Below, in pieces: positions 28,446-30,172 of a stretch of 46,574 bases of DNA. The stretch's first letter is position 1, and each line of letters opens with the position of its first letter. The translations under genes were made by a program, and so were the position numbers. Source of the stretch: Gemmatimonadales bacterium (GTDB lineage: Bacteria; Gemmatimonadota; Gemmatimonadetes; Longimicrobiales; Gaopeijiaceae); NCBI GenBank assembly GCA_007692665.1, contig REBP01000110.1, positions 1 through 46,574 of the forward strand, in the 5' to 3' direction. The notes beneath the pieces were generated by a model that saw only the letters and a program-made list of their open reading frames with translations, did no database searches and was not told the DNA's origin.

Positions 28446-29087
28446 TCAGGCGTCCGGAGTTTCGTCCGGCGGCCCGTCGATGATCTCGCCCGGATCCTCC
28501 TCCGAGAACATGTCGTCATCCGGGGCCTGCAGGATCTCGATGAGCTTCACATCGAAGACCAGCATCCCTGCCGGTGCGCCCGGCCGCGACGCCGGGTCCC
28601 CGTAGGCGAGCTCCGCCGGGATCCAGAAGCGCCGCTCCTCGCCCTCGGTCATGAGCTGGAGCCCCTCGACCCACCCGGCGATGAGGCCGCCGGCGGGGAA
28701 GACCGCGGGCGCGCCCCCCACCACGGAGCTGTCGAACATCTCGCCGTTGGTCTGCCACCCCGTGTAATGCACCCGCACCATGTCGGTGGGTACCGGGCTG
28801 CGCTGGCCATCGCCGGGCTCCAGCACGACCCAGGCGAGCCCCGATGCCGAACGTTCCGCCCGGGACGGCGGCGCGTCCACATTGCTCGGTGCCCGGATCT
28901 GGCCGTCTACCGCCGCGTTGGGATCAAGCTCCATGCTCGTGGTGCGGTCGCACGCCACCAGGAGCGGGATGGCCAGGAAGGAGCCGGCCAGAAGCCGGAG
29001 GGCGGCGCGGAAGGGGCGGGGAGAGCGAGATGAAGCGGGAGCTCCGGGGAGGCCGAGGGCAGGCGAGGTGGAACGGGGTTCGGGCAT
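28446..29087 (-). CDS. FKBP-type peptidyl-prolyl isomerase lipoprotein
   Basis: 213 residues from ATG 29087. Signal peptide FLAIPLLVAC gives a lipobox, so the domain faces the periplasm. The FKBP domain runs from about residue 95 to 190: DMVRVHYTGWQTNGEMFDSSVVGGAPAVFPAGGLIAGWVEGLQLMTEGEERRFWIPAELAYG then GMLVFDVKLIEI. The conserved YTG, FDSS, GWxEGLQLM and VFDVKLIEI elements match FKBP catalytic clefts. It would catalyse proline isomerisation during folding of exported proteins. An acidic C-terminal tail (EEDPGEIIDGPPDE) follows. Upstream to 29548 lies noncoding repeat-containing DNA. Confidence 0.9.
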   Translation of the reverse strand: MPEPRSTSPALGLPGAPASSRSPRPFRAALRLLAGSFLAIPLLVACDRTTSMELDPNAAVDGQIRAPSNVDAPPSRAERSASGLAWVVLEPGDGQRSPVPTDMVRVHYTGWQTNGEMFDSSVVGGAPAVFPAGGLIAGWVEGLQLMTEGEERRFWIPAELAYGDPASRPGAPAGMLVFDVKLIEILQAPDDDMFSEEDPGEIIDGPPDETPDA

Positions 29088-29548
29088 GGGAGTCCGGAAG
29101 CTGGGGGGCTGGGGGGATGCGAACACGGCCGGGCATGTCCGGTGCGGAGTCGGACAGACCGTGTGCGGAACGGGCAAGCCGCCCGTCTGTGGAGCGCCGC
29201 TGCAACGCCTGCACCATGGGGGCGCGTGCCGCCGGGGTCAAGCGGGGCGGCACGGATGCGGGCGGGCAACGCGTCGGGGCCGATGCCCGGCGACAGCGCG
29301 CAGGACTTGGCCCGCCGGGGTTTCAGGCAGCTGCCGGAGGTGGGGAGGGCGACAGGGACGCTCTGAATCTGCCAATCGCAGTGTCCGACGGCCTCGTCGG
29401 CAATCGGAGGGGGACCTGACATCGCGAACTTGCCAATCCGCCAGCGGCCCCGATGCGATTGGCAGTTTCGCCGTGTCCTGGCGCCCAGTTTCTGCCACCG
29501 GTGGATTCGAAGTGCACGATTGGCAGGTTCGCTGGCCGCTTCACCCGG
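29088..29548. other. Noncoding region with inverted GCGAAnnTGCCAAT repeats
   Basis: This 461-nt stretch is flanked by two minus-strand genes. It holds no convincing gene; short open frames are Arg/Pro-rich noise. It contains four copies of a 16-17 bp motif in opposite orientations (29366-29532) and a perfect hairpin CCGACG-GCCT-CGTCGG at 29385-29400. Function unknown; candidates are operator sites, a small mobile repeat or a structured RNA. Confidence 0.6.
29366..29532. repeat. Four inverted copies of GCGAAnnTGCCAATCg
   Basis: Copy 1 (29366-29380) AATCTGCCAATCGCA and copy 2 (29424-29440) GCGAACTTGCCAATCCG are on the plus strand. Copy 3 (29455-29471) and copy 4 (29516-29532) are on the minus strand, reading GCGAAACTGCCAATCGC and GCGAACCTGCCAATCGT. 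Copies 2 and 3 face each other across about 14 nt and could pair as a hairpin; copies 1 and 4 form an outer inverted pair. Confidence 0.7.
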
Positions 29549-30172
29549 TCACTCCGCCCAGTGCACCCGCCACATGTGCTGTTCCAGCGTTTCGGGGCTG
29601 GCTGCGCAGGCCTCGAGCCAGTCCCGGATCTGGCCGCCGAGAAGGCGTCCCCACTCCCGCGCATCCTCGGCATCCAGGTAATGGAGGGCATGATGCGGAA
29701 ACCTTGGCTCCGGAGGGGTGCGGACGTGGTGGAGCAATATGGGAAGCCCCGCATCCCGTGTGAGTTGCCAGACCTCGTGCTCGAAGGAGTGCTGGGCCGC
29801 AACCTTGTCGTAGACCCGCTGCTGCTGGGCCTGGATCGCTTCGACACTCCCGGCGCTCGCGAACTGGTACCAGCTGAGGAGCGCGTCGTCGGCGTCCGAG
29901 ACCACGGGCCAGAACTCCCCGGGTTGGTTCGGAATGGCCGATGCCTTCGAGTTCACCCGGAACCAGAATCGAACCGGCCCGGCCGGTGTCCGGGCCGTGT
30001 ACCTGGAGGGCGCGCCCTTCGCGCGGGCCACGGAGGCGGGCGGGCTCGCCTCGGCGAATCCCGCATCGAAGTTCCGGTAGAATTCGGGGGCGTGGATCAA
30101 GGGTCGGGTCTCCCGGACGGAATGGCGGACGCAGGGGCAAAGGGGGCGTGGGGGCGGGGTCCACCTCCGCAT
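29549..30172 (-). CDS. Conserved-looking hypothetical protein
   Basis: 207 residues from ATG 30172; the true start could be further in, because the first 20 residues are Pro/Arg-rich. The body has good protein character: LIHAPEFYRNFDAGFAEAS, RYTARTPAGPVRFWFRVNSKASAIPNQPGEFWPVVSDADDALLSWYQFA, and a helical end AREWGRLLGGQIRDWLEACAASPETLEQHMW. No signal peptide and no membrane span. No family recognised; it is rich in aromatic residues and ends with charged helices. Part of the upstream region is noncoding up to the TonB-C-domain gene on the opposite strand. Confidence 0.6.
   Translation of the reverse strand: MRRWTPPPRPLCPCVRHSVRETRPLIHAPEFYRNFDAGFAEASPPASVARAKGAPSRYTARTPAGPVRFWFRVNSKASAIPNQPGEFWPVVSDADDALLSWYQFASAGSVEAIQAQQQRVYDKVAAQHSFEHEVWQLTRDAGLPILLHHVRTPPEPRFPHHALHYLDAEDAREWGRLLGGQIRDWLEACAASPETLEQHMWRVHWAE

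Follow-up and report, generated by a model that had tools for sequence, protein, structure and literature searches.

A dispersed intergenic element of six alternating half-sites, putatively protein-bound, in Gemmatimonadota genomes

The locus and its six half-sites

The window analyzed here is a stretch of 46,574 nucleotides from a Gemmatimonadales genome (assembly GCA_007692665.1, contig REBP01000110.1), which we refer to as G000. On its minus strand lie a gene for a lipoprotein-like FKBP-type peptidyl-prolyl isomerase (28446-29087; Pfam PF00254, E 9.3e-21) and a gene for an uncharacterized protein without a Pfam family (29549-30100). Between them we found an element of about 158 bp, whose core runs from the first to the last half-site (29369-29526). 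The FKBP gene, which is not thought to be part of it, lies 282 bp downstream of the core, whose other end is 22 bp from the stop codon of the uncharacterized gene, whose 3' end abuts it; the gene-free location given in an earlier note on this DNA is therefore correct for the core. No terminator-like site or promoter was found at this copy.

The element contains the 10-bp half-site CTGCCAAYSG six times, in alternating orientation (+-+-+-) and at offsets of 0, 25, 61, 87, 123, and 148, giving three inverted pairs with a 61-bp period per element of about 160 bp. The first pair is formed by half-site A+ (CTGCCAATCG, 29369-29378, plus strand) and the degenerate A- (29394-29403, minus strand; TCGTCGGCAA, read as TTGCCGACGA on the minus strand), which has four mismatches and is located where the 25-bp rule predicts. 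The second pair comprises B+ (TTGCCAATCC, 29430-29439, plus strand) and B- (CTGCCAATCG on the minus strand, 29456-29465), and the third a degenerate C+ (CTGCCACCGG, 29492-29501, plus strand) and C- (CTGCCAATCG on the minus strand, 29517-29526). These dyads are separated by spacer 1 (29404-29429), where the dyad is weak in the window genome and a strong palindrome in several other genomes, and by spacer 2 (29466-29491). The core is bordered by a left outer flank (29357-29368), the counterpart of a CTCGCGAnT flank in other copies, and by a right outer flank (29527-29538).

When trained on 13 copies that did not include the one in the window, a six-site score reached 74.7 bits at 29369; the next-best score elsewhere in the window was 4.5 bits and the top score over 100 mononucleotide shuffles was 14.8 bits, which argues that the element is not a product of chance. 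It is also matched by two models, R1 (a sequence-only model built from 15 copies) and R2, both of which had the window copy in their training sets. The isolated 15-mer, allowing up to three mismatches, is not enriched within the window (14 occurrences versus 11 expected in shuffles), and the interest of the locus consequently rests on the cluster.

The earlier note had described four copies of a 16-17 bp motif, two per orientation, and these are real (29363-29378 and 29424-29438 on the plus strand, 29457-29471 and 29518-29532 on the minus strand); three of the four are identical to GCGAAnnTGCCAATC, whereas the first, which is without the GCGAA prefix, deviates from it at two positions. The set was nevertheless incomplete, since there are six half-sites and the two degenerate ones had been overlooked. 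Likewise, the conserved part of the motif is the CTGCCAAYSG core, the GCGAA prefix not being general among copies, and the proposed hairpins (copies 2 and 3 as an inner pair, 1 and 4 as an outer pair) are just two among several pairings possible with six inverted sites. A short stem reported beside copy 1, CCGACG-GCCT-CGTCGG, is present at 29385-29400 but overlaps the degenerate second half-site. By inspection, no similar stem recurs at the same place in other copies, and it looks peculiar to the window copy.

Copies elsewhere in the genome

The element is not confined to this place, and G000 holds multiple further copies. A genome-wide search with TGCCAATCG gave 24 matches, mostly clustered inverted pairs on other contigs, and models R1 and R2 recovered 15 full-length copies plus partial ones. 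Such a motif search was proposed in the earlier note, which named many intergenic copies as the outcome pointing to an element. All full-length copies are intergenic except one (C103), which extends into the final bases of a reading frame. They lie between tandem, divergent, and convergent gene pairs, most of them within about 100 bp of a gene 3' end.

Identity between these copies is 77% in the half-sites, where the core TGCCA is almost invariant, and 38% (near background) in the DNA between sites, a contrast partly built in because the copies were recovered via their half-sites; the constant spacing of the half-sites was not imposed at the outset. There are no near-identical pairs of copies in G000, so recent transposition is not evident in this genome.

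The neighbors are functionally unrelated (FKBP, serpin, AccA, Omp85/CtaG, rhodanese, LysR, amidohydrolases), and no common neighbor gene was found across copies. The partial copies C72c and C107b and copy C140 are situated just upstream of class-V aminotransferase genes, an association that may be due to chance or to gene duplication carrying the element. The gene to the right of copy C42 (L103:1658-3796) encodes a thymidylate synthase of the ThyX type, into which an intein carrying an HNH endonuclease domain is inserted.

Recurrence in related genomes

The only other species of the genus in the genomes searched, G001, has two copies. One of them occupies the interval orthologous to that of G000 copy C34: the flanks align at 78.7% and 81%, but no alignment is obtained for the interval between them. 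The G001 copy nonetheless has the full set of six half-sites, with 77% identity, whereas identity in the inter-site DNA is 36% in one orientation and 45% in the other, as compared to 38 +/- 3% for shuffled sequences. This suggests that the half-sites have been retained at this interval, or the pair could represent independent gains in one tolerant interval. For the window locus, the corresponding interval could not be recovered from G001; in PLM2.Bin20, the neighbors of the arginine-deiminase-like gene are not those of the window locus.

Among 96 genomes of the family, a strict dyad pattern matched G000 alone, because the half-sites differ in other lineages. The architecture itself (156-161 bp, 61-bp period) recurs with lineage-specific half-sites in other genera and in a second family of the order. 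The complete genome G005, from another genus of the family, contains at least 42 distinct copies. Its main subfamily (35 copies of 160 bp, 85% mean identity, GTGCCAATCGTGCA at the ends) is often in tandem, several copies have repeated flanking DNA, and the two arms have their half-site regions in common and different loops. These near-identical and tandem copies look like the result of an expansion. The same genome also holds old, diverged single copies with other half-sites (ATCCCAACSG and relatives); over G005 as a whole, half-sites of the ATCCCA and GTGCCA types occur. A pattern search of G005 turned up no larger copy with the same ends: every clear pair of outer sites was separated by 146-147 bp, without a gene in between. 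By eye, the flanks showed no target-site duplication.

Convergent gene pairs make up 11 of the 23 element-bearing gaps in G005, as against two of the 31 gaps without an element in these stretches (Fisher p=0.0006). Overlap of the element with a predicted gene is seen at none of 43 further loci. Gene calls were made with a simple codon score trained on G000, and distances are therefore approximate.

In the second family, G047 and G041 have about 10 and four copies, respectively, with CCGCCA-type half-sites and spacers that are often strongly palindromic (e.g., GGGTGCGCCAGGCGCACCC). With an E cutoff of 0.01, model R2 has matches in 12 out of 39 genomes; as one G047 copy, one G108 copy, and several G005 copies were used in its training, the independent matches are G041, G043, and G045. 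The weakest of the 12 (G018, G051, G055, G083), checked by eye in part, are candidate matches. R2 gave no match in the 12 genomes of a third family, nor in G064, G096, and G113, which belong to the same genus as G005. Two G043 loci are plain 61-bp tandem arrays of at least 3.4 and 3.9 units running off their contigs, indicating that the number of units is usually, but not always, three. At an interval of G083 orthologous to that of one G005 copy the element is absent, as expected if it may spread. In this G083 interval (L227, G083:C1, ~1850-2890), a small gene-like stretch between near-identical direct repeats replaces it.

Double-stranded sites or RNA structure

RNA covariation was another check suggested in the earlier note, and compensatory changes are absent among the copies of the window genome. 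Half-site pairing within one G000 copy is no better than between different copies, and pairing of spacers within their own copy is not above pairing across copies. Taken over all lineages together, the hairpins A+/A-, B+/B-, and C+/C- exceed shuffles, and the mutually exclusive set A-/B+, B-/C+, and A+/C- does so similarly; this is expected when all six sites change together, and no single fold is picked out. Mismatches show a slight, non-significant excess of G-T over A-C (18 v 11, transcript orientation) and no clear strand polarity. The window element has no match in Rfam at gathering thresholds. Since the pairing tests, mismatch pattern, and Rfam search give no single RNA fold, we favor recognition of the half-sites in double-stranded DNA.

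The predicted folds of the window copy are strong (z -2.5 on one strand and -3.8 on the other), and the spacer palindromes of G047 and of the old G005 copies have some own-pair excess (p=0.012, 8 spacers). Within a copy, the two 12-bp outer flanks show more complementarity than flanks taken from different copies (permutation p=0.0004), possibly a terminal inverted repeat continuing outward.

What the element may be

Of the three readings proposed in the earlier note (operators for a multimeric regulator, a mobile repeat of small size, structured RNA), the second fits best, in the form of a dispersed, putatively mobile multi-copy element with putative protein-binding half-sites. Our preferred reading, to which we give a probability of about 0.5, is a REP/BIME- or MITE-like dispersed intergenic repeat whose half-sites would be bound by a lineage-specific protein encoded elsewhere. 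As judged from conservation and symmetry, each half-site would receive one subunit of this protein, and a symmetric complex could assemble on up to six half-sites per element. Protein and half-site would co-evolve, changing together in each lineage. The element would be carried in trans, and may have expanded in some lineages while scattered old copies were kept in others, mainly downstream of genes. We found no binding protein, transposase, or autonomous copy. Single queries of phage and of plasmid collections gave no match; pattern matches in viral contigs were at about chance level and without the six-site array.

An alternative is that the element is a host site that organizes or insulates the chromosome, in which case selection would have kept the six half-sites at the 3' ends of genes as a platform where a nucleoid or architectural protein docks, with mobility secondary or absent. 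Several observations are consistent with this: half-sites are conserved far above inter-site DNA even in old, single copies, a copy is retained at the orthologous G001 interval, placement is intergenic, at 3' ends, and between convergent genes, and G005 has diverged single copies alongside its expanded subfamily. However, the distribution is patchy, with G064, G096, G113, and the 12 third-family genomes lacking a detected copy, and the near-identical, tandem G005 copies resemble an expansion, so that we regard this alternative as rather unlikely. A broader version, in our opinion unlikely, would see an order-wide chromosome-organizing system of Gemmatimonadota, where a dedicated protein would act on six half-sites per element, preferring gene 3' ends and convergent genes, and would co-evolve with the half-site as a lineage-specific "address" while the 61-bp geometry stays unchanged.

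The strong predicted folds, the proximity to gene 3' ends, the palindromic spacers with their own-pair excess, and the slight G-T excess could be explained by a structured RNA or an array of 3'-UTR hairpins with a role in transcription termination or in the protection of mRNA ends. We consider this unlikely, as own-pair excess is lacking in both half-sites and spacers of the G000 copies, incompatible pairings score similarly across genomes, and there is neither an Rfam match nor a terminator-like site at the window copy. Operators of a transcription factor regulon would agree with the clustered dyad half-sites, with the position of C42 and the partial copies C72c, C107b, and C192 in divergent promoters, and with the three copies preceding class-V aminotransferase genes. 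Yet the other neighbors are unrelated, and many copies lie where there is no promoter for them to act on, at 3' ends or in convergent gaps, making this a very improbable reading. Finally, palindromic, extragenic, clustered inverted units are also what REPs and BIMEs present, and could point to repeats of the REPIN type that owe their mobility to a Y1 REP-associated tyrosine transposase (RAYT). This possibility, the most improbable of all, is already largely refuted: Y1_Tnp (PF01797) was found in none of eight genomes, including G000, G001, and G005, while control genomes were positive. In an alignment of the copies inspected by eye, no GTAG or CGTC tag was noticed at a fixed position beside the palindromes.

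Comparison with known repeat systems

REP, BIME, and REPIN repeats are found in enterobacteria and Pseudomonas (PMC3116915, PMC3733652). They resemble the present element in being small palindromic extragenic repeats of several inverted units each, clustered and dispersed, near gene ends and lineage-specific in sequence. Unlike them, our element has a fixed six-half-site array of about 160 bp with a 61-bp period, conserves 10-bp half-sites and not whole palindromes, and occurs in genomes in which, for the eight tested, the Y1/RAYT transposase is absent.

MITEs and the enterobacterial small mobile repeats RU-1, RU-2, and ERIC (PMC2759123, PMC2229807) are similarly non-coding, intergenic, multi-copy sequences of about 100-200 bp with terminal inverted sites and a patchy occurrence between species. 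In contrast to MITEs, the present family has internal half-sites on a strict 61-bp rhythm, its old copies have diverged everywhere but in the half-sites, and neither an autonomous partner (in the complete genome G005) nor, by eye in the G005 flanks, a target duplication was seen.

The direct and inverted sites at fixed spacing on either side of a center are also reminiscent of transposon ends, although our element has no cargo or transposase between its halves and measures about 160 bp in all. Ends of the Tn7/Mu-like type carry several transposase-binding sites each. Integron attC sites, too, have paired boxes within an imperfect inverted repeat and can occur in series; their box is RYYYAAC/GTTRRRY, which the half-site CTGCCAAYSG (taken from half-site frequencies) does not fit, and several tandem G005 copies repeat similar flanking DNA and not different cassettes. 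A CRISPR array, with direct repeats and unique spacers of ~26-72 nt, was rejected as well, since here the sites are inverted, 15-17 nt apart, and in three units per full element.

The element looks like an undescribed relative of bacterial REP/BIME-type repeats. We found no description of such a repeat, in Gemmatimonadota or otherwise, in the open-access papers that our literature search covered. Its unusual signature is that geometry is kept while sequence changes, the six-site, 61-bp layout holding across several genera and two families, which offers a direct handle for finding the protein that would read it. It would add a REP-like class for which no Y1 transposase has so far been found.

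These repeats may also matter for draft assemblies. Many copies are found no more than a few hundred bases from the end of a contig, namely C19, C107, and C125 of G000, C22, C27, and C97 of G047, C135 and C747 of G041, C354 and C367 of G043, C13 of G045, and C73 and C623 of G108. Assemblies may break beside copies, and copy numbers from draft genomes may be too low.

Weak R1 matches in the family (L115-L126) look like chance or coding DNA, except for L118 (G111:C5, ~1501-1660), in another genus of the family. At this locus, short palindromes of another type (CTGCCnnnnTGGCAG) are repeated in tandem; it has a low six-site score and may represent a separate repeat family.
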